Source: Gemmatimonadota bacterium
GTDB taxonomy: Bacteria; Gemmatimonadota; Gemmatimonadetes; Gemmatimonadales; Gemmatimonadaceae
Direction of reading: 5' to 3'
DNA length: 64,000 bases
Assembly (NCBI GenBank): GCA_014192065.1
Contig: BJHH01000001.1
Location: 372,001-436,000, forward strand
The notes beneath the pieces were generated by a model. It was not told the origin of the DNA and made no database searches. It was given only the letters and a program-made list of their open reading frames with translations. The position numbers and the translations under genes are program-made. Positions 42,657 to 62,966 of the stretch are shown here, in pieces (the stretch's first letter is position 1; each line of letters begins with the position of its first letter).

Positions 42657-44480
42657 ATGAAGCCAGTTTCGCATTGTCTCGTTGCGTCCGTGGTGGCCGC
42701 GTTCCTCGTGTTGCCGGAAGGCGCGCTGGCGGCGCAGCGTGGCGCACCTCCCGTTCGGCAGCCGGCTATCGACGTCAGAGTCGACACCGTGCGCCAGCAG
42801 GGCGCGGTCGCGCTCGACTTCCAGAACCAGGAATTGCAGGTGGTGTTGAGTGCGCTCGCGGAGGCCGGCAACCTCAACGTCACGATGACCAACATTCCGT
42901 CACAGCGTGTGACGATTCGCATGGCGCGCGGCTTTACGCGCGATACGCTCGTGGCCATGGTCCGGGCCCTTTCCGAGGCGAACGGCGTCAAGTTCACAGC
43001 GCAGGGTTCGTTGATCCGGCTCGAAGGGGATCCGGCGCTGGCGCCGGCTGCTCAGACGACGGCGCTGCAGCGGGTGCAGCAGGCCCAGGCGCAGCAGCAG
43101 GCGGCGGCCGTGGAGTTGAAGCTCTACACCTACCGGCTGAAGCACGCCAACGCCGTGACCGTGGCGCCGGTGCTGATGAACCTGCTCGGCGTCACCACCG
43201 GTAACGCGTTTGGCGGACAGGGTGGTGGATTGCAGTTCACGGTGGCCGGTGGGGCAGGGGGTGGCCGTGGCGGTGCCGTGGCGGTGCCTGGCGCAGCTGG
43301 CGGTGGCTTGGGCGGCGGTGCAGCGGGCGGTGCAGCGGGCGGTGCAGCGGGCGGTGCAGCGGGCGGTGCAGCGGGCGGTGGCGGTGCAGGCGGTGGGCGT
43401 GGCGGCGGTGGTGGTGGGGGAGGAGGAGGCGCGGGCGGGCGCGGCGGCGGCCAGCAGGCGCTCTTACAGGGCCTGCTCGGCAACGTCCTCGGCGCACAGA
43501 CTGGAGCACCCGGCACGCTTTCCAATGCCGCGTCGCAGATCCGCATTGTCGCCGACGAACCGACCAACTCGCTGCTCATTCGCTCGACGCTGCCCGACTA
43601 CCAGCTCATTCAGGGGCTGATGCAGGGCATCGACCTGCGCCCACTGCAGGTGCTCATCGAGGTCACGATCGCTGAGGTGCAGCGATCGAGCGCGCTTGAC
43701 GTCGGGCTCAGCGGTACGGCGACGAAGAAGGGCGCTAGCGCCAACCAGCGCGACACGCTCGGGCTGTTGCCCGCGAATCCGAGCGCGCGCGACTTCATCT
43801 TCAAGCTCGCGAGCGGCAACGGATCGATCAACTACGCGGCGGCGCTCCAAGCCCTACAGACGCGCGGCGATGTGAAAGTGCTCTCGATGCCCGTGATCAT
43901 CGCGCAGAACAACAAGCAGGCCGTGCTCAACGTCGGCGAGCAGCGGCCGTTTGTGCAGGTGAACCAGAGCGTGACGACGGGCACAGTGCCGACGACGGTG
44001 CAGACGGTGCAGTACATCCCCGTCGGGACGACGCTGACGATCACGCCGACGATCAATGCCGACGGCTACGTCAACATGGCCGTGGACCAGACCAACGATG
44101 CTGCGACGAATGAAATCCAGTTCAGCGCGCCGGTGATTTCCAAGCGCCAGGCCACCACGCAGATCTTTCTGCGCGACGGCCAGACCACGGTGATCGGCGG
44201 ACTGGCCGGCAATAGCCAGAGCAAGACGGTCTCCGGTGTGCCGTTTCTCTCACGTATTCCGTTTATCGGTCAGTACTTGTTTGGTAGCACGACGAAGATG
44301 ACGACGACGAACGAACTCTTTCTCTTCTTGACGCCGCACATCATCTCGAGCGACGAAGACATCGAGCGTTTCCGCAACTCGCTCGAGGGGAGCACGGAGA
44401 TGCTGAAGGAGATGCCGCTCAAGCCGCGGATCACGCCCGAGGACTCGATCAAGCGTCGTCCGCCCGGAGGGGCGAAGTAG
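42657..44480 (+). CDS. gspD: Type II secretion secretin GspD with a Gly-rich insertion
   Basis: 607 residues. Signal peptide (cleavage near ALA|AQ), N0/STN-like domain (FQNQELQVVLSALAEAGNLNVTM), N1 domain split by a low-complexity insertion, and a secretin barrel (VGEQRPFVQVNQS, VPFLSRIPFIGQYLFG, TNELFLFLTPHII). It forms the outer-membrane gate. Residues ~195-266 are almost all Gly and Ala (units of GGAA) and are encoded in part by a 12-bp tandem repeat. No pilotin is visible. Confidence 0.93.
   Translation: MKPVSHCLVASVVAAFLVLPEGALAAQRGAPPVRQPAIDVRVDTVRQQGAVALDFQNQELQVVLSALAEAGNLNVTMTNIPSQRVTIRMARGFTRDTLVAMVRALSEANGVKFTAQGSLIRLEGDPALAPAAQTTALQRVQQAQAQQQAAAVELKLYTYRLKHANAVTVAPVLMNLLGVTTGNAFGGQGGGLQFTVAGGAGGGRGGAVAVPGAAGGGLGGGAAGGAAGGAAGGAAGGAAGGGGAGGGRGGGGGGGGGGAGGRGGGQQALLQGLLGNVLGAQTGAPGTLSNAASQIRIVADEPTNSLLIRSTLPDYQLIQGLMQGIDLRPLQVLIEVTIAEVQRSSALDVGLSGTATKKGASANQRDTLGLLPANPSARDFIFKLASGNGSINYAAALQALQTRGDVKVLSMPVIIAQNNKQAVLNVGEQRPFVQVNQSVTTGTVPTTVQTVQYIPVGTTLTITPTINADGYVNMAVDQTNDAATNEIQFSAPVISKRQATTQIFLRDGQTTVIGGLAGNSQSKTVSGVPFLSRIPFIGQYLFGSTTKMTTTNELFLFLTPHIISSDEDIERFRNSLEGSTEMLKEMPLKPRITPEDSIKRRPPGGAK
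43319..43378 (+). repeat. 12-bp tandem repeat inside gspD
   Basis: Five perfect copies of TGCAGCGGGCGG, in frame, so that copy-number change would add or remove four residues (Gly-Gly-Ala-Ala type) without a frameshift. Related imperfect GGC/GGT runs follow to about 43450. Such minisatellites are prone to slippage. Confidence 0.9.
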
Positions 44481-44481
44481 C

Positions 44482-46008
44482 GTGGGCACGAGTGACGCCG
44501 CGCGCCTTGACGAACTGACCGAACTGGCCGCGGTGCAGCGACTGTCGCGGTCGCTCACCGCCGACTGGCTCGAACAACAGAGCGTGCTGCCGCTGGCGCT
44601 CTCCGGCGGCGTGCTGCGCGTAGGCACGTGGCTCGGCCGCGTGGACCCGTTGGCACTCGACGACCTCTCGATCCTCTTTGGCGCCGAAGTGGAGGTCGAG
44701 CAGCACGGCGAGCATGACCTCAAAAGCGCGATCCGTCGTGTGTACGCGCAGGACGAGGTCACCGCCGAAGGGCTGATTGCCGGGATGGCGAGCGAACGCG
44801 GCGCGAACGACGAAGATGAGATTCCGCTCGACGACCTGCTGCACCTCGCCAACGAGGCGCCGGTCGTGCGGCTGGTGAACCTGCTGCTGATCGAGGCGCT
44901 CGAGGCGCGGGCGTCGGACGTCCACCTCGAGGGGTACCAGAACGAGCTGCGGGTACGCTACCGCGTGGACGGCGTACTGCAGAACGCACCGTCGCCGCCG
45001 TCGCATCTTGCCGCCGCGATCATTAGCCGAATCAAGATCATGGCGGAGCTCGACATCGCCGAGCGACGGATGCCGCAGGATGGCCGCATCCGGCTGCGGC
45101 TGCAAGACCGCCAGGTGGACGTCCGCGTCTCCACGATGCCGACGCTACGCGGCGAGAGCGTGGTGCTGCGCCTCCTCGACAAGGAACGCGGTCGGATTTC
45201 GCTCACCGAACTCGGCATGGCCGACGACACGCTCGAGCTGTTCCGCGACGTGATCGCACGACCGCACGGCATCGTGCTGAGCACCGGTCCAACGGGATCG
45301 GGCAAGTCCACGACGCTCTACGCCGCGGTGGAACTGCTGCGTACGGGGCGCGAGAAAATCCTCACCGTTGAAGATCCGGTTGAGTACGAACTCACGGGCG
45401 TGCCGCAGGTGCCGGTGAACGAAAAGGTCGGCGTCACGTTCGCGAACACGTTGCGCGCGATGCTGCGCCAGGATCCGGACATTATTCTCGTCGGCGAAAT
45501 TCGCGACGCCGAGACGGCCCAGATCGCTACGCAGGCAGCGCTCACCGGCCACCTCGTACTCTCGACGCTGCACACCAACGACGCGCCGACGGCGCTCACC
45601 CGACTGCTCGACCTCGGCGTGGCGGCGTACCTCGTGGCCAGTACGGTGGACGCGGTGCTCGCGCAGCGTCTCGTCCGCGTCATCTGCCCGAGTTGCAAGG
45701 CGGAGACGGTGCCCGACAAGTCGGTCGCGCGTCGCATCGATGTGCAGGCGCTCGGTCTGGAGCGTATCTGGAAAGGGGCGGGATGCGACGCCTGCCGGCA
45801 GACGGGATATCGCGGTCGCACGGGTATCTACGAACTCCTGGTCATGGACGCGGAGCTTCGCGCCGAGGTGCAGCAGCGACGGGGTTCTGAGGAGCTGCGG
45901 GTGATGGGACTGCAGAAGGGCATGCGATCGCTGTTCGATGACGGACTGCGCCTCGTCCGGACCGGCGTGACTACGCTCGACGAAGTGCTCCGGGTGGCGC
46001 GGGGCTAG
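44482..46008 (+). CDS. gspE: Type II secretion ATPase GspE
   Basis: 508 residues from GTG. N-terminal N1/N2 region (residues ~1-110), then the ATPase: Walker A GPTGSGKST (Lys275), Asp box and Walker B ILVGEIRDAETA, His box STLHTND, and a tetra-Cys zinc motif (CPSC and CDAC) near residues 405-435. It powers pseudopilus extension. Last gene of the operon. Confidence 0.95.
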   Translation: MGTSDAARLDELTELAAVQRLSRSLTADWLEQQSVLPLALSGGVLRVGTWLGRVDPLALDDLSILFGAEVEVEQHGEHDLKSAIRRVYAQDEVTAEGLIAGMASERGANDEDEIPLDDLLHLANEAPVVRLVNLLLIEALEARASDVHLEGYQNELRVRYRVDGVLQNAPSPPSHLAAAIISRIKIMAELDIAERRMPQDGRIRLRLQDRQVDVRVSTMPTLRGESVVLRLLDKERGRISLTELGMADDTLELFRDVIARPHGIVLSTGPTGSGKSTTLYAAVELLRTGREKILTVEDPVEYELTGVPQVPVNEKVGVTFANTLRAMLRQDPDIILVGEIRDAETAQIATQAALTGHLVLSTLHTNDAPTALTRLLDLGVAAYLVASTVDAVLAQRLVRVICPSCKAETVPDKSVARRIDVQALGLERIWKGAGCDACRQTGYRGRTGIYELLVMDAELRAEVQQRRGSEELRVMGLQKGMRSLFDDGLRLVRTGVTTLDEVLRVARG

Positions 46009-54925: not shown

Positions 54926-55653
54926 TGCAGCCATCGGGTGGAGTGGGCATTGCCATCGCCTTCATGGCGGGGTTGCTCTCGTTTCTTTCGCCCTGCGTGC
55001 TGCCGCTGGTGCCGAGCTACGTCACGTTCATTACCGGGCTCTCGGTCGAGGATGTGAGCAAGTCGCGACGGCTCGCGGTGATCCATGCGCTGCTCTTCAT
55101 CTCGGGCTTCACGCTCATCTTCATGCTGCTTGGCGCCGGCGCGACCACGCTTGGGTTCGTGGTCAAGTCGAACCGCATCTGGATGGCGCGCATCGGCGGC
55201 GGGCTGATCATCGTGTTCGGGCTCTACCTGCTTGGCGTGCTCAACATTGGTGCGTTCGCGCGCGAACGACGCGTGCACCTCGCCGACAAACCGATGGGCT
55301 ACTTGGGTTCGGTACTCGTCGGTATCACGTTCGGTGCGGGTTGGAGTCCGTGCATCGGCCCGATCCTCGGTGCCATCCTCACCTATACGGCGAGCGAGGC
55401 TGACCTGCAGCGCGGCATGCTGCTGCTGTTCGCGTATTCGATGGGGCTCGCGGTGCCGTTCCTCGCCGCGGCGTTCGCGGTGGACTGGTTCCTCACGGTG
55501 TTCGCCCGGTTCAAGGGCTACCTCGGGTATGTCCAGAAGGTGGCCGGCGTGCTGCTGATCGTGGTGGGGCTGTTGATGGTGACGAACTACTTCACCATTC
55601 TCGCGACCATGCTCCAGGGGCTGACGCCCGAGTTCCTGCGGTCGCGGATTTAG
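54925..55653 (+). CDS. CcdA-family thiol-disulfide transmembrane protein
   Basis: 242 residues from the ATG in TGATG at the regulator stop. Six hydrophobic segments with the paired Cys motifs SPCVLPL (helix 1) and SPCIGP (helix 4). CcdA moves reducing equivalents across the inner membrane, often for cytochrome c maturation or thiol repair. Cytochromes encoded in this window could depend on it. Confidence 0.9.
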   Translation: MQPSGGVGIAIAFMAGLLSFLSPCVLPLVPSYVTFITGLSVEDVSKSRRLAVIHALLFISGFTLIFMLLGAGATTLGFVVKSNRIWMARIGGGLIIVFGLYLLGVLNIGAFARERRVHLADKPMGYLGSVLVGITFGAGWSPCIGPILGAILTYTASEADLQRGMLLLFAYSMGLAVPFLAAAFAVDWFLTVFARFKGYLGYVQKVAGVLLIVVGLLMVTNYFTILATMLQGLTPEFLRSRI

Positions 55654-55704
55654 GCTCGCGTCGGCCAGCTTCGCGCAAGCGCAACTATCATGTCGGCACG
55701 GCCA

Positions 55705-55732
55705 TTGCCACGATGCGCGCACCTGTTAAGAA
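55705..55732 (+). promoter_or_regulatory. Probable promoter of the histidine operon
   Basis: TTGCCA (55705-55710) and TAAGAA (55727-55732), 16 nt apart, predict a transcript beginning at about 55739, within 2 nt of the leader-peptide ATG. There is no Shine-Dalgarno sequence before that ATG. Confidence 0.45.
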
Positions 55733-55740
55733 TTCCCTCC

Positions 55741-55815
55741 ATGCAGATCGCCGGCCGCCACCACGTCCATCATCATCATCCCTCGAGGGACGGTTTGATG
55801 GCGTTTAGCGGCTAG
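55741..55815 (+). CDS. hisL: Histidine operon leader peptide
   Basis: 24 codons from ATG to TAG: MQIAGRHHVHHHH, then PSRDGLMAFSG. Codons 7, 8 and 10-13 (55759-55764 and 55768-55779) are His, six His in seven codons. It precedes a perfect terminator hairpin 99 nt before hisG. This is the hallmark of transcription attenuation by charged tRNA-His: low tRNA-His would stall the ribosome on these codons. Confidence 0.85.
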   Translation: MQIAGRHHVHHHHPSRDGLMAFSG

Positions 55816-55836
55816 CCGCACAGCGCACCACACATC

Positions 55837-55872
55837 AACGCCGGCCCTGTTGGCCGGCGTTTTGGCGTTTTG
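55837..55872 (+). terminator. Attenuator of the histidine operon
   Basis: A perfect 10-bp stem (55837-55846 with 55852-55861) and a 5-nt loop, followed by a T/G-rich tail (55860-55872). GGCGTT at 55800-55805, inside the leader frame, is complementary to AACGCC at 55837-55842 and could act as antiterminator. CGCCA at 55756-55760, just at the first His codon, can pair with TGGCG at 55799-55803. This gives a classical 1:2, 2:3, 3:4 set. Confidence 0.8.
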
Positions 55873-55913
55873 GACCCCGCCTTCGCCTGCCACATGGCCG
55901 CAGAGGAGACCGG

Positions 55914-56789
55914 GTGACCCCCGACTTGAACGCAGACGTGTTGCGTCTCGCCCTTCCAAAGGGGCGGATGCAGGAAGAAGTGCTAAAGCTGATGAACGAC
56001 GCTGGACTTCCCGTGCGGCTCGGAGGGCGCGAATACCGCCCGACCGTCGCCGCCGGTCGGTTCAACGCGAAGATCCTCAAGCCGCAGAACATCATCGAGA
56101 TGCTTGCAAGCGGTTCGCGCGACGTCGGGTTTGCCGGCGCTGACTGGGTCGCGGAACTTGGCTCGGACGTCGTCGAACTGCTCGACACCGGCTTTGATCC
56201 CGTGCGGCTCATCGCGGCTGCACCCGAGTCGCTGCTCGTCAATGGCGCTTTGCCGCTGCGGCGGCTCGTCGTGGCGTCGGAATATGCCCGCCTCACGGCG
56301 GCGTGGATCGAGCGGGCTGGAATCGACGCGCGATTCGTGCGGTCGTACGGCGCAACCGAAGTGTTCCCGCCAGAGGACGCGGACCTCATCGTGGACAACA
56401 CCGCCACGGGAGCCACGTTGGTCGCCAACGGACTCACGATCGTGGATACCCTGCTCGCGTCGTCCACGCGCGTGTACGCCAACCCGCGGGCGATGGAGAA
56501 CCGCGGACGCCGCGCTGCAATAGAGGGCTTCACGATGCTGCTGCGGTCGGTGCTCGACGCCCGCCAGCGCGTGATGCTGGAGGTGAATGTCTCGGCGGCG
56601 GCGCTCGAGGCCGTGTGCGCGGCGCTGCCGTGCATGCACGAGCCGACGATCTCGTCGCTGCACGGCGAAGCGGGCTTCGCGGTGAAAGCCGCGGTGCGAC
56701 GCGACGCGTTGCCGGCCGTCATACCGGCCATCAAGGCGCTCGGTGGTACCGACATCGTGATCACGGCGCTCGCGCAGCTGGTCGCATGA
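55914..56789 (+). CDS. hisG: ATP phosphoribosyltransferase, long form
   Basis: 291 residues from GTG 55914 with GAGGAG upstream. First step of histidine synthesis (ATP + PRPP). The catalytic core has RLALPKGRMQEEVLKLM, DVGFAGADWVAELG and the PRPP-binding DLIVDNTATGATLVANGL. The C-terminal ~80 residues form the ACT-like domain of long-form HisG, the site of feedback inhibition by histidine. No hisZ is needed. Confidence 0.95.
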   Translation: MTPDLNADVLRLALPKGRMQEEVLKLMNDAGLPVRLGGREYRPTVAAGRFNAKILKPQNIIEMLASGSRDVGFAGADWVAELGSDVVELLDTGFDPVRLIAAAPESLLVNGALPLRRLVVASEYARLTAAWIERAGIDARFVRSYGATEVFPPEDADLIVDNTATGATLVANGLTIVDTLLASSTRVYANPRAMENRGRRAAIEGFTMLLRSVLDARQRVMLEVNVSAAALEAVCAALPCMHEPTISSLHGEAGFAVKAAVRRDALPAVIPAIKALGGTDIVITALAQLVA

Positions 56790-58495
56790 CCCTGTTTGCT
56801 CCGTCGACTGGCGTAGGTGCCACGCCTGCCTACGCGCCGGCGCCCCCGATGGCGCCGTGCGACATCAACCTTGCCGGCACCGAGGCCGGAGGCGTCCAGC
56901 CAATCCTGCTCGAGGCGCTGCCGGACAGCGCGCTGGCGCGCGGGGCCCGGTATCCAGATTGCCGACCGCTCGCGTCACTGTTTGCATCGCAGCTCGGCAT
57001 AGCCGACGAGTGTGTGCTGGTCACGGCCAGCGCCGACGAGGCGCTCGAGCGTGCCTGTCGCACCATGCTGGATGCCGGGCGCAACGCGATCGTCACGGAC
57101 CCCACCTTCGAGATGATTCCGCGGTACGTGACCCTCGCTGGTGCAGAACTTCGCGCGGCGCGATGGCCATTCGGCGCGCTGCCGATCGATCAGATCGTGG
57201 CGCTCGCCGATGATCGCACGTCGCTGGTGGCGATTGCGTCGCCGAACAACCCGACCGGTGCCGTCGCGACGATGGGTGACATCCGGCGCATTCACGACGC
57301 CATCCCGGCCGCGTTGATCCTGCTCGACCTGGCCTACATCGAGTATGCAGGCGACGACATCACGCGTGAAGCGTTGACGCTTCCCCGCGTGGTCGTGACA
57401 CGCACGCTGTCGAAGGCATGGGGTATGCCGGGTATCCGCGTCGGGTACGCGGCTGGCGCAGCGGAGGCGATTGCCTGGATGCGGCGCGCGGGAAGTCCGT
57501 ATTCCGTGTCCACGCTTTCGCTTGCGACCGCCGAGCGCGCGCTCCGGTTTGGAAACGGCTGGCGAGACGCCAACGTGGTCGCGGTTCGACGCAACCGGGG
57601 CCGCCTCGACGCGCTCTTGACGGAACTCGGCGCCGCTCCGCTGGCAAGCGAGGCCAACTTCGTCACGGTGGCCGGAGTGCGGGCCACGTGGATTGCGGAC
57701 GCGCTCGCCGGATTCGGCGTGGGCACGCGGCTGTTGGTCGGCAGCGATACCGAGCGGGTGCGAATCACGGTGCCGAGTGACGATGCGGTGTTCGGCCGGC
57801 TCGAACGGGCACTTCGCGCGGCGCTCGCCCCTGAGGCGATTCTGTTCGACCTCGACGGCGTGCTGGCCGATGTCTCGCAGTCGTACCGCGAGGCGATCAG
57901 GCAAACGGCCGCGTCCTTCGGGGTGACCCTCACGGCCGAGTCGATCCGCGAGCGGAAGGCCGCCGGCCGCGCCAACGATGATTGGGCGCTGACCACCGAG
58001 CTCATATTGGCGGGCGGGCGTTCCGCGACGCTGCGCGAGGTGACCGAACGCTTCGAGCGCCTGTATCAGGGCGACAGCGAGGTTCCGGGCCTGAAGCAGG
58101 CGGAGCGGCTCGTGACCTCTCGCGAATGGCTGGCCGCGCTCGCGGCCCGCTTCCCGCTGGCGATCGTCACCGGCCGGCCGCGGACCGACGCGGAGAGCTT
58201 CCTCGCACGATTCGGCGTTCGCGACCTGTTCACGGTGGTCATCACTCGCGACGATGGCCCGATCAAACCGGATCCCTTTCCGGTAGCGGCGGCATGCCGT
58301 GCGCTCGGCACATCATGCGCCTGGATGATCGGTGACACTCCCGACGACGTCGCCAGCGCCCGCGCCGCCGGCGTCCTTCCCATTGGTGTGGTCGCGCCCG
58401 GCGACCAGCCAGACCTCGTGCGCGATGCGCTCATCCGCGTCGGCGCTGCGCGCGTCCTCGATACCACAACGGAACTCACCTCATGCCTCTCCTGA
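56786..58495 (+). CDS. hisC: Histidinol-phosphate aminotransferase fused to a HAD phosphatase
   Basis: 569 residues, ATGA overlap with hisG. Residues 1-345: class I aminotransferase HisC with ASPNNPTGA, the PLP-Lys in RTLSKAWG (Lys210) and GIRVGYAAG. Residues ~350-569: a HAD-superfamily hydrolase with motif I DLDGVLAD (Asp355), motif II TGRP, motif III Lys in IKPDPFP and motif IV GDTPDD. The two join without a stop. The HAD part is a good candidate for the histidinol-phosphate phosphatase, otherwise missing from the operon, so one protein would carry two consecutive steps. This function is inferred. Confidence 0.92.
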   Translation: MTLFAPSTGVGATPAYAPAPPMAPCDINLAGTEAGGVQPILLEALPDSALARGARYPDCRPLASLFASQLGIADECVLVTASADEALERACRTMLDAGRNAIVTDPTFEMIPRYVTLAGAELRAARWPFGALPIDQIVALADDRTSLVAIASPNNPTGAVATMGDIRRIHDAIPAALILLDLAYIEYAGDDITREALTLPRVVVTRTLSKAWGMPGIRVGYAAGAAEAIAWMRRAGSPYSVSTLSLATAERALRFGNGWRDANVVAVRRNRGRLDALLTELGAAPLASEANFVTVAGVRATWIADALAGFGVGTRLLVGSDTERVRITVPSDDAVFGRLERALRAALAPEAILFDLDGVLADVSQSYREAIRQTAASFGVTLTAESIRERKAAGRANDDWALTTELILAGGRSATLREVTERFERLYQGDSEVPGLKQAERLVTSREWLAALAARFPLAIVTGRPRTDAESFLARFGVRDLFTVVITRDDGPIKPDPFPVAAACRALGTSCAWMIGDTPDDVASARAAGVLPIGVVAPGDQPDLVRDALIRVGAARVLDTTTELTSCLS

Positions 58496-59082
58496 GCCCC
58501 CGCGTTGCCTCCGTCCAGCGGACGACGCGCGAAACCGACATTACGCTCGACCTCACGCTGGACGGATCGGGGAAGGACACGATCGCCACCGGGATCGGAT
58601 TCTTCGATCACCTGTTGGTGGCGCTCACCCTCCACTCGCGGATCGACCTGTCGCTGACCTGCCGCGGCGATCTCGAGGTGGACGATCATCACACCGTCGA
58701 GGACTGTTCCATCGCGCTCGGCACGGCAATCGACCGGGCGCTCGGCGACCGCGCCGGAATTACCCGCTTCGGGTATGCCTATGCGCCGCTCGACGAGGCG
58801 CTGGCGCGCGCCGTCGTGGACTGCTCCGGCCGGCCGTATTCGCGCGTGGACCTCGGCCTCAGTCGCGAGCGGCTCGGTACGCTCTCGTGCGAGAACGTGT
58901 CTCACGCGCTGGCGAGCCTAGCAATCGCCGCGCGGCTCACGCTGCACGTAGACGTTCTGGCGGGCGAAAACGATCACCATCGCGCGGAGGCCACCTTCAA
59001 GGCGGTCGCCCTCGCCCTGCGTGCGGCCGTGGCCCGCGGCGCGGGCTCTGACGTGCCGAGTACCAAGGGCATACTCGCATGA
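58483..59082 (+). CDS. hisB: Imidazoleglycerol-phosphate dehydratase
   Basis: 199 residues, overlapping the previous gene by 13 nt. It dehydrates imidazoleglycerol phosphate. The duplicated metal motifs are present: GFFDHLL, DDHHTVED, SHALASLA and ENDHHRAEATFKA. It is the stand-alone dehydratase without the HisB-N phosphatase. Confidence 0.96.
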   Translation: MPLLSPRVASVQRTTRETDITLDLTLDGSGKDTIATGIGFFDHLLVALTLHSRIDLSLTCRGDLEVDDHHTVEDCSIALGTAIDRALGDRAGITRFGYAYAPLDEALARAVVDCSGRPYSRVDLGLSRERLGTLSCENVSHALASLAIAARLTLHVDVLAGENDHHRAEATFKAVALALRAAVARGAGSDVPSTKGILA

Positions 59083-59681
59083 GGCCGTTGTCGCTCGCGG
59101 TCGTGGAAACGGGGAGCGCCAACCTTGCCTCAGTGCTCGCGGCGTTCGGGCGCCTCGGCGTGGCGGCAGTGCCGACACGCGACGCCGACATCGTACGGAA
59201 CGCCGATCGCGTCGTGTTGCCTGGCGTTGGCGCGTTCGGCGACGTGATGCAACGCCTTTCGGCGCGCGGGCTGACGGAGGTGCTCTCGGAACGCTTCGCG
59301 GCGATGCGCCCGATCCTCGCCGTCTGCCTCGGGCTGCAGGTACTCGCGCGGGCGAGCGAGGAGGCTCCCGGTGTGGCCGGTCTGGGCGTCGTCTCCGGCA
59401 CCGTGCGGCGTTTTCCCGCGTCGTCGAAGGTGCCGCAACTCGGATGGAACCGGGTCGAGCCCGATCCGTCAAGCGTCGTGGTGAGCGGCGGGCACGCCTT
59501 CTTCGCCAACTCGTACTACCTCGAATCGGTCGACGATGGATGGACGGCCGCGTGGGCAACGCACGACGTCCGGTTTGTCGCGGCGATCGAGCGCGGGCCG
59601 CAGCTCGCGTGCCAGTTTCACCCCGAGCTGTCGGGGCCGTGGGGCGCTTCGCTGCTCGAGCGGTGGTACGCGTCGTGCTAG
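59079..59681 (+). CDS. hisH: Imidazole glycerol phosphate synthase, glutamine amidotransferase subunit
   Basis: 200 residues, ATGA overlap with hisB. Supplies ammonia from glutamine to HisF. The catalytic triad is visible: Cys83 in AVCLGLQ, and His and Glu in QFHPELS. The N-terminal ETGSANLASV differs from the common DYGxGNLxSV. Confidence 0.94.
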   Translation: MRPLSLAVVETGSANLASVLAAFGRLGVAAVPTRDADIVRNADRVVLPGVGAFGDVMQRLSARGLTEVLSERFAAMRPILAVCLGLQVLARASEEAPGVAGLGVVSGTVRRFPASSKVPQLGWNRVEPDPSSVVVSGGHAFFANSYYLESVDDGWTAAWATHDVRFVAAIERGPQLACQFHPELSGPWGASLLERWYASC

Positions 59682-60427
59682 CCCGCCGCGTGATTCCGTG
59701 CCTCGACACCCGTGACGGTCGCGTGGTGAAGGGTGTGCGATTCAAGGGGCTCCGAGATGCAGGGTCGCCGGTGGAATTGGCGGACCGATACCAGCGCGAT
59801 GGTGCGGACGAGCTCGTCATCCTCGACGTATCGGCCACGACCGATGAGCGGTCGCATGCGCTCACCACGATACGCGAGGTCCGCCGCATTCTGGCGATTC
59901 CGCTGACCGTCGGCGGCGGCGTGCGCAGCGCGGCAGACGCCGGCGCGCTCCTGGATGCCGGCGCCGACAAGGTGGCGGTGAACACCGCAGCATTTTACTC
60001 GCCGGAACTGATCGAGGTGCTGGCGCGGCAGTTCGGCCAGCAGTGCGTCGTGCTCTCGGTGGACGCGGCCGAGGCGAACGGTGCCTGGCGCGTGGTGGTG
60101 CGGGCCGGCAGCGAAGGCACGACCCGCGACGCGGTCGCGTGGGCCGCCGAGGGAGAGTCGCGCGGTGCGGGCGAAATCCTTCTCACGAGCGTGGATCGCG
60201 ACGGCACGCAAAGTGGGTACGATCTTCGTCTCGTCACGGCTGTCTCGACGCGTGTTGGTGTGCCGGTGGTGGCATCAGGCGGCGCCCGATCCGGTCACGA
60301 CCTTCTCGCCGCTGTGCGGGCCGGCGCGGACGCCGTGCTGGCGGCATCAATATTTCACGACGGCATTGCGAGCATCGCGCAGGTCAAGGCGACGCTCCGC
60401 GATGCCGGTATCGAGGTACGACCATGA
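59675..60427 (+). CDS. hisF: Imidazole glycerol phosphate synthase, cyclase subunit
   Basis: 250 residues from GTG 59675; the frame is open far upstream, but the HisF N-terminus ([10 protein letters not shown] with Asp11) starts here. It overlaps hisH by 7 nt. The TIM barrel has [25 protein letters not shown], the second catalytic Asp in LSVDA and [10 protein letters not shown]. Confidence 0.95.
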
Positions 60428-61701
60428 TCGTTCCATCCATCGACATCATTCGGGGTCGCACGGTCCAGCTCGTCGGTGGCCGCGACCAGGTACTTGACGC
60501 GGGCGACCCAGTGCCGTGGCTCGAGAAGTTCTCCGTCGCCGGTGAAGTGGCGGTCGTTGACCTCGACGGGGCGCGCCGCGAAGGCTCGAACCGGGAACTG
60601 ATCGCTGAGCTGTGCCGTCGCGCGCCGATCCGGGTCGGCGGCGGCATCCGTGATCTGGAAAGCGCCCGCTGGTGGCTCGACGCCGGCGCAACGCGAATCG
60701 TGATTGGCACCGCCGCCGATGCGGCCCTGCTGCGTCAGCTACCGCGCGAACGAGTGATCGTCGCGCTCGATGCCGAGGACGGCGAGGTCGTGGTAGACGG
60801 TTGGCGCACGCGCACCGGCCGGACCATCGAGGACCGGCTGGCTGAGCTGCGCGACCTTGCTGGTGGATTCCTCGTTACGTTCGTCGAGCGCGAAGGGCGG
60901 CTCGGTGGGACAGATCTCGATCGCGCGGCGCGCATCGTGGCCGCGGCCGGTAGTACTCGCGTGACCGTCGCCGGTGGCGTGACCACGGCCGAGGAAATCG
61001 CGGCACTCGATCGCCTCGGTGCAGACGCGCAAGTTGGGATGGCGCTGTACACCGGTCGGCTGTCGCTTGGTGACGCCATTTCCGCGCCGCTCGTGAGCGA
61101 CCGGGCGGACGGGCTCGTGCCGACTGTTGTCGCGGACGAGAGGGGAACGGCGCTCGGACTCGCTTGGTCGAGCCGTGACAGTATCGCCAAGGCCGTGGAA
61201 CTTGGCCGCGGGGTTTATCAGTCGCGGACGCGCGGACTCTGGATCAAGGGAGAGCAATCGGGTGACACGCAGGAACTGCTGCGCATTGATCTCGATTGCG
61301 ATCGCGATGCGTTGCGATTCACCGTGCGCCAGCGTGGGGCCGGATTCTGTCACCTAAAGACGACCACCTGTTGGGGTGTGGCGCCGCCGCTCGCTCAACT
61401 CGAGCGCACGCTTCGGGATCGCGCGGCGTTCCCGGAGCCCGGATCGTACACCAACCGGCTCCTGAGCAACGCGTCGCTGTTGCGCGACAAGCTCGTCGAG
61501 GAAGCCGGCGAGCTCGCCGATGCGGTCACGGCTCGCGAGGTGACAGGAGAAGCGGCAGACCTGATGTACTTCGCGCTGACGCGGATGGCCGCGACTGGTG
61601 TGACCATCGCCGATGTCGAGCGCGAGCTCGCGCGGCGGGCGCTGCGGGTGTCCCGACGTTCAGGCGACCGGAAAGTCGCCGATGCGGGCGTGGCGCGATG
61701 A
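60424..61701 (+). CDS. HisA-HisI-HisE fusion: ProFAR isomerase / PR-AMP cyclohydrolase / PR-ATP pyrophosphohydrolase
   Basis: 425 residues, ATGA overlap with hisF. Residues ~1-215 are HisA: PSIDI with catalytic Asp7, RVGGGIRDL, the second Asp in VALDAEDG and [11 protein letters not shown]. Residues ~223-330 are His[23 protein letters not shown] and the zinc Cys residues in [10 protein letters not shown]. Residues ~335-415 are His[17 protein letters not shown] and [13 protein letters not shown]. Steps 2, 3 and 4 of the pathway would lie on one chain. The HisI-HisE part resembles yeast HIS4 as I remember it, more than the usual bacterial hisIE. hisD follows in ATGA overlap. Confidence 0.93.
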
Positions 61702-62966
61702 ATACGGCACTCCTTCGTCCGGTGGCCGTCGCGGACGTGCCGGATACGTCGCGCACCGGCGTCGATTCCGCGACGGAAACCGCCGCCGCTGCGATCGTGG
61801 CGAACGTGCGCGAAGGTGGGGTGGATGCGATGCTGCGCTACGCCTCGCGATTCGATGGATGGACACCGGGCACACCGTGGCTCTTCGACCGCGCCGCCAT
61901 GCGTCGCGCGCTTGACGGTCTCGACGGAGACGCGCGAGACGTGCTCGAGCGAACGGCTGGGCGGATCGCATCGTTCGCACGCGCGCAACGCGCGGCGCTG
62001 AGCGACCTCACCGTGCCCGTGGCGGGTGGCCGGGCGGGGCACAGCATCGTGCCGATCGAGCGCGCCGGGTGCTATGCGCCGGCCGGCCGGTTCCCGCTCC
62101 CGTCGTCATTGCTGATGACCGCGGTGACGGCGCGCGCCGCCGGCGTGAGCGATGTGGTGGTCGCCACGCCGAGCCCGGGGCCTTTGATGCTGGCGACCGC
62201 CGCCATTGCCGACGCCGATCTGCTGTTGGGCATTGGCGGTGCACAGTCGATCGCGGCGTTGGCGTACGGCGTCGGCGTGCCGGCGTGCGATATCGTGGCC
62301 GGCCCCGGCAATCGCTGGGTCACGGCCGCAAAGAAGGCCGTCGCCGGCAATGTCGCGATTGACATGATCGCAGGTCCGAGCGAACTGGTCGTGGTCGCGG
62401 ATGCGAGCGCACGGGCGGCGACTGTCGCGGCGGACCTTCTGGCGCAGGCAGAGCACGACCCTGATGCCTTCGTGGCGCTGGTGACCACCGAACCGCGATT
62501 GGTCGCCGAGGTGGAGCGCGAGCTCGAGCGCCAACTCTCGGCCCTTCCCACCGCCGCGATCGCGCGTGCGGCGCTCGCACACGGATGTGTCGTCGTCTGC
62601 CGCGACCTCGACGACGTGGTGACCGTGTGCGACCGGCTTGCCCCGGAACACTTGCAACTGTCGGTGCGGAACCCCGACCTGCTCGCCGCGCGCGTCCGCA
62701 ACGCAGGCGCCTGTTTCATCGGTGAGCACTCCGCGGAAGTGTTCGGCGATTATGGAATCGGCGGCAACCACGTTCTGCCGACGGGCCGGCGCGCGCGCTT
62801 TAGCGGCGGCCTCTCAGCGCTGACCTTTCTTCGCGTGCGGAGTTGGCTTCGACTCGACGCGGCCGGATCGGTCGTCGCCGATGTCGCCGCGCTTGCACGT
62901 ATCGAAGGGCTCGAAGCCCACGCGCGCGCGGCGGAATGTCGACAACGACCGGGCGTTCGGGACTAA
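61698..62966 (+). CDS. hisD: Histidinol dehydrogenase
   Basis: 422 residues from ATG 61698. It oxidises histidinol to histidine in two NAD-dependent steps. GCYAPAGRFPLPSSLLM, GIGGAQSIAALAYG, DIVAGPGNRWVTAAKK, zinc ligands in LLAQAEHDP, the catalytic pair in LAPEHLQL, and EVFGDYGIGGNHVLPT are all present. The usual PGG segment (YVPGG) is APAG here. It is the last gene of the operon; its stop overlaps the stop of the convergent gene. Confidence 0.95.
   Translation: MNTALLRPVAVADVPDTSRTGVDSATETAAAAIVANVREGGVDAMLRYASRFDGWTPGTPWLFDRAAMRRALDGLDGDARDVLERTAGRIASFARAQRAALSDLTVPVAGGRAGHSIVPIERAGCYAPAGRFPLPSSLLMTAVTARAAGVSDVVVATPSPGPLMLATAAIADADLLLGIGGAQSIAALAYGVGVPACDIVAGPGNRWVTAAKKAVAGNVAIDMIAGPSELVVVADASARAATVAADLLAQAEHDPDAFVALVTTEPRLVAEVERELERQLSALPTAAIARAALAHGCVVVCRDLDDVVTVCDRLAPEHLQLSVRNPDLLAARVRNAGACFIGEHSAEVFGDYGIGGNHVLPTGRRARFSGGLSALTFLRVRSWLRLDAAGSVVADVAALARIEGLEAHARAAECRQRPGVRD

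Follow-up and report, generated by a model that had tools for sequence, protein, structure and literature searches.

A probable ribosome-mediated histidine attenuator with a probably leaderless leader peptide ahead of a his operon in Gemmatimonadota

In the stretch of Gemmatimonadaceae DNA (phylum Gemmatimonadota) that we analysed (64 kb, hereafter the window), hisG, hisC-HAD, hisB, hisH, hisF, hisA-hisIE and hisD lie in succession, so that the attenuator described here heads a complete seven-gene his operon with hisG as its first gene. The features of the locus are the following:

55705..55733, + strand: promoter-like pair, -35 TTGCCA (55705-55710), 17-nt spacer, -10 AAGAAT (55728-55733); spacing conserved in relatives
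55741..55815, + strand: leader peptide ORF, MQIAGRHHVHHHHPSRDGLMAFSG, ATG at 55741, 24 codons, then TAG at 55813-55815; no Shine-Dalgarno sequence, probably leaderless
55759..55779, + strand: regulatory codons CAC CAC GTC CAT CAT CAT CAT (HHVHHHH); the CCATCA within them is segment 1
55786..55801, + strand: segment 2, antiterminator 5' strand, AGGG ACGGTTTGATGG; has two alternative partners, the His codons (1:2) and 55833-55848 (2:3)
55800..55805, + strand: GGCGTT, 6 nt, complementary to 55837-55842; alternative register
55833..55848, + strand: segment 3, antiterminator 3' strand, CATCAACGCCGGCCCT; overlaps the terminator 5' arm
55837..55861, + strand: terminator hairpin (3:4), arms AACGCCGGCC (55837-55846) and GGCCGGCGTT (55852-55861) around the loop CTGTT; 10 of 10 pairs perfect, with covariation
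55862..55873, + strand: terminator tail TTGGCGTTTTGG, weak U-tract
55914..56789, + strand: hisG, ATP phosphoribosyltransferase (long form), GTG start; Shine-Dalgarno-like GAGGAG at 55903-55908
56780..58495, + strand: hisC fused to a HAD-type hydrolase domain, start approximate
58483..59082, + strand: hisB, imidazoleglycerol-phosphate dehydratase
59079..59681, + strand: hisH
59678..60427, + strand: hisF
60424..61701, + strand: hisA fused to hisIE, start approximate
61690..62966, + strand: hisD, start approximate

The 24-codon leader with HHVHHHH at 55759-55779 is present exactly as an initial annotation of this DNA had described it. Nowhere else in the window, whatever the frame, do 7 codons include 6 or more His, and none of 10 shuffles contained such a site; the 143-nt leader has a folding z of -3.66. 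As second His leaders elsewhere in the window's genome, 35 pattern matches were considered and rejected: they are mostly CAC repeats, as judged from the part of them that was inspected, and the most leader-like one (L222) is an other-frame reading (MRITIRPI...) of an FKBP-like lipoprotein gene.

Retention of the His codons in relatives had been proposed as a check, and the codons are kept in two sets of loci. A His-rich leader lies at the same place upstream of hisG in 63 of the 65 usable relatives from the Gemmatimonadaceae (type A); the HisG of most members of this family is only about 36% identical to that of the window. The second set (type B) comprises loci with the window type of HisG, about 50 of 80 of which, in Gemmatimonadota, Planctomycetota, Myxococcota and other phyla, have the same leader arrangement. 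We did not find the arrangement in the Alphaproteobacterial (Geminicoccaceae) and Polyangiaceae members with window-type HisG. In type A, the consensus peptide M..RHHHAHHHGPTGRG..RV.G ends at a stop codon, which is separated by about 35 nt from CGGCCCGTCC-loop-GGACGGGCC, itself trailed by a T run. Segment 1 (GGCCC) and segment 2 (ACGGGTCGG) of this type both lie within the GPTGRG codons (GGCCCGACGGGTCGGGG) of the peptide, and segment 2 is complementary to the 5' arm of the terminator. Two sequences are conserved in type B: GGCCGGgTGATGGTGT surrounds the stop codon of the leader, and ACCATCGACGCCGGCC begins ahead of the terminator arm and extends into it. The sampled hisG loci of families f2 and f6 have no leader; in most of them an open frame of about 180 codons runs up to hisG, which is therefore not the first gene of its operon there.

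From the position of the -35 and -10 elements, the predicted transcription start of the window locus is about 55740, at the leader ATG. The spacing in relatives, with which the type-A consensus also starts, is TTGAC, about 17 nt, TANNNT, 5 to 11 nt, ATG; the ATG lies 5-11 nt past the -10 box, on the expected transcription start or only a few bases off it, at 91 of the 95 loci with a recognisable promoter, and Shine-Dalgarno-like 4-mers precede it at just 12 of 113 loci. Because the ATG follows the -10 box at this distance and mostly has no Shine-Dalgarno sequence, the leader peptide of the His attenuator is probably translated from leaderless or nearly leaderless RNA. In Sinorhizobium meliloti, trpL is an established case of such a leader peptide, the ATG of its ORF being the 5' end of the transcript (PMC7298713); trpL differs in concerning Trp and not His, in belonging to the Alphaproteobacteria and in having 14 codons, and its start was determined experimentally, whereas here it is deduced from promoter spacing. 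A leader ATG that lacks a Shine-Dalgarno sequence would, like the weak U-tract, also be compatible with a plain or leaky intrinsic terminator, or an element for RNA stability, that separates hisG from the gene upstream, the His-rich ORF being untranslated. We regard this as improbable, since loci of several phyla preserve the frame of the His run from the conserved promoter-ATG spacing to the stop even though the rest of the leader varies: His codons would not persist in a non-coding element, and the complementary segment 2 would serve no purpose in a mere terminator.

The claim of a perfect 10-bp terminator held, with all ten pairs found, and the suggested search for 3:4 covariation in relatives gave a strong signal in both types. 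We counted 29 double-change cells in the terminator stem of type B (7.1 ± 3.2 in shuffled data) and 22 in that of type A (10.0 ± 1.9), values that were reached by 0 of 500 shuffles in each case. The U-tract of the window consists of 4 U (two of them inside the stem), then GGCG, then UUUU, and a simple terminator scan of the window did not flag the hairpin at 55837-55861. The weakness of this tract would suit a leader that acts on the translation of hisG, as a translational attenuator or through leader-to-hisG coupling, rather than on termination, and PMC9413887 mentions known attenuators in which a ribosome-binding site is sequestered. With its end at 55861, however, the hairpin stops about 42 nt short of the hisG GAGGAG and does not sequester it, and the T run after the hairpin is better in most relatives than in the window; we judge action on translation to be very improbable. 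The poor U-tract is common to the window and its nearest type-B relatives L142, L143, L145 and L146, with GGCGTT repeated in some, and termination at these loci may need help.

Segment 2, whose motif GGGGCGGGTTGATGG also occurs in the nearest relatives (for example, L142 and L143), is predicted to form an antiterminator of 14 pairs between AGGG.CGGT.TTGATG (55786-55800) and CATCAA.GCCG.CCCT (55833-55848). In the predicted fold without a ribosome, TGATGG (55796-55801) pairs with CCATCA (55767-55772) inside the His codons (1:2), and because of this pairing the His codons are, in the modelled folds, themselves the lock for the antiterminator, a self-referring design. The initial annotation had assigned the competing role to GGCGTT at 55800-55805. 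Its complementarity to AACGCC in the terminator 5' arm (55837-55842) is indeed exact, but we rejected this 6-nt segment as the main antiterminator: it mostly pairs elsewhere in the predicted stalled-ribosome fold, and the 14-bp helix just upstream replaces it.

The logic of mutually exclusive pairing, also part of that annotation, is supported by the predicted occlusion of the terminator arm by upstream RNA, which reaches 0.78 when any of the first six codons of the His tract occupies the A site and 0.60 for the last His, vs. 0.12 once the ribosome is at the stop. The occlusion predicted for the window is still 0.60 with no ribosome, and the occlusion model therefore lacks a clean off state for unbound RNA. 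The window antiterminator alone is not clearly beyond chance (5 of 100 shuffled versions of segment 2 reached the window duplex), and 16 of 100 shuffles reached the predicted arm occlusion of the window; since the window locus alone is near chance, the significance of the antiterminator comes from comparative evidence. Predicted arm occlusion was above the shuffle mean at 55 of 60 and 47 of 49 loci in two sets of loci. In type B, 7 pairs of the 2:3 helix changed on both sides, a result reached by 1 to 8 of 500 shuffles depending on the measure, whereas in type A neither the 2:3 nor the 1:2 helix showed significant covariation, partly because the sequence hardly varies (segment 2 is nearly invariant). 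In an alignment-free cognate test, segment 2 prefers its own arm (z = -6.8 in type B and -4.5 in type A; 0 of 5000 permutations), and the same test of segment 1 against segment 2 found the own partner to be better (z = -10.0 and -8.8), where these shuffle and permutation tests of pairing treat the loci as unrelated and ignore shared ancestry. The proposed check on 2:3 covariation was thus borne out modestly in type B and gave nothing detectable in type A, while the comparison of cognate with non-cognate partners supports the pairing in both.

We consider it highly probable that the locus is a ribosome-mediated transcription attenuator, one that makes transcription of the his operon dependent on the supply of charged tRNA-His. 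The in silico basis is the anatomy, its conservation, the terminator covariation, the 1:2 and 2:3 complementarity and the arm occlusion by stall position; the start site, translation, termination and histidine dependence of the attenuator are what we infer. Transcription would start at or a few bases from 55741, giving an RNA with little or no sequence ahead of the leader ORF, from which the peptide would probably be translated. If the supply of His-tRNA is sufficient, the ribosome would reach the stop at 55813 and cover segment 2 or, alternatively, would leave, and segment 2 would pair back onto the His codons; in either case, the terminator at 55837-55861 would form and the polymerase would stop. 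With scarce His-tRNA, the ribosome would stall on the His run and mask segment 1, and segment 2 (55786-55800) would then pair with 55833-55848, taking away the terminator 5' arm, such that the polymerase would proceed into hisG.

Histidine might instead be sensed by a protein or by another RNA (T-box or riboswitch), regulators that act on his genes in Firmicutes and Actinobacteria (PMC9413887). Against this, neither the window nor any of 17 related loci gave an Rfam match at the gathering score, RF00514 His_leader included, and the leader is just about 130 nt long and is occupied by the ORF and the hairpins. The T-box covariance model likewise gave no match in the window, and Rfam at E up to 10 yielded only chance matches in 55650-55950. 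We find sensing by a protein or another RNA hardly credible, and ribosome-mediated attenuation is the reading retained here.

Ribosome-mediated attenuation is known chiefly from Proteobacteria, Actinobacteria and a few Firmicutes. The initial annotation had seen the logic of his-operon attenuation in what seemed a phylum far from Proteobacteria, and this is what emerges: the host phylum is Gemmatimonadota, and the His codons, the terminator and the exclusive pairing are conserved. Like the enteric/Proteobacterial his attenuator (RF00514), the window type lies before hisG and combines a leader with His codons, 1:2, 2:3 and 3:4 pairing and an intrinsic terminator; unlike it, the window type gives no match to the covariance model, has no Shine-Dalgarno sequence and probably almost no 5' UTR, occurs in other phyla, and would use the His codons themselves as the strand that pairs with segment 2. 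His leaders in Firmicutes are described for the Bacillus cereus group, Peptostreptococcaceae and Erysipelotrichales (PMC9413887) and ahead of hisS/hisZ (PMC2965389). In these, too, attenuator and terminator hairpins come after a leader peptide with 3-5 His codons; they were also predicted by comparison and include one suspected transfer of an operon with its attenuator. They differ in belonging to other phyla, and the passages on them do not name a leaderless start as a feature. In the open-access papers searched, we did not find ribosome-mediated attenuation joined to Gemmatimonadetes or Gemmatimonas, although an earlier mention elsewhere is possible, and a paper on Planctomycetes takes leader-gene distances, rather than his attenuators, as its subject. 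Although this class of mechanism has long been known, a set in which translation probably begins on or close to the initial base of the transcript is apparently undescribed. New here are the spacing between promoter and leader ATG, the implied exchange of operon and attenuator, and, in the same genome, a DAHP synthase gene preceded by a Tyr-rich leader.

The last of these (L248; contig C8 of the window's genome, G000, minus strand, upstream of 44326-45033) lies ahead of a gene for DAHP synthase (PF00793): its Tyr-rich leader, MNSRYASYYRYYHAAGRYTGRSAGALRS, is followed by GGGCCCGTGGAACACTCCACGGGCCC, with GGGCCCGTGGA and TCCACGGGCCC as the arms of a hairpin. By its sequence, it is a probable second attenuator in the window's own genome. 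No obvious leader precedes trpE or two other DAHP synthase loci of this genome, in which PF00682 (leuA) was not found. Tyr- or Phe-rich leaders also precede DAHP synthase-like genes at L243, L245 and L233 (weak matches to the type-A model, with gene names read from the translation). L236 and L247 extend this series: at these five loci, all of them weak matches to the His model in other genomes of the family, a similarly built Tyr- or Phe-rich leader is followed by a DAHP synthase-like or another ORF. Two further observations concern his loci. In the Palauibacter-like genomes (L240, L241, L182 and L183), the hisG leader carries FFGHYYYH or YFGHHYYH, in which Tyr/Phe replace some His, and the sensed amino acid has perhaps changed, judging from these codons. 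At L232 (G100:C13), hisG and a hisB-like gene lie about 2.9 kb apart, each behind its own similar His attenuator, and the his operon is apparently split in two parts.

The HisG of the window shares 60-77% identity (query alignment A1) with HisG proteins from several phyla, and this type occurs in Gemmatimonadota, Planctomycetota (including Phycisphaerae), Myxococcota, Sumerlaeota, Acidobacteriota, Armatimonadota and others. In the HisG tree, the window type forms one block apart from the usual HisG of the family, with 100/100 support on both stems, and within that block the window and genus g6 (L003 and L004) fall in different parts. The type-B model has one match in the window's genome, namely the window locus, which was in the training set; the type-A model has no match there. 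Since the HisG of the window's genome differs in type from that of its genus mates and the operon type is patchily distributed, the sequence comparison implies that the his operon has been exchanged between lineages together with its attenuator. The leaders of L149 and L150 are identical, and those of L212 and L219 nearly so, despite very different phylum or organism names, which indicates that titles of metagenome-bin records may be mis-binned or mis-named and require care.

We lean towards a picture in which a mobile type of his operon has spread across Gemmatimonadota, Planctomycetota, Myxococcota and others with its own leaderless His attenuator, whose His codons would lock the antiterminator, and in which, in Gemmatimonadota, this would be one case of a general leaderless attenuation that also operates ahead of DAHP synthase through Tyr/Phe leaders. 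The findings extend ribosome-mediated attenuation, in silico, to Gemmatimonadota, Planctomycetota, Myxococcota and other phyla. They reveal, within one family, two different leader sequences with the same predicted job before two types of hisG, and they provide a large set of natural variants in which the control of termination by leaderless leader peptides could be tested.
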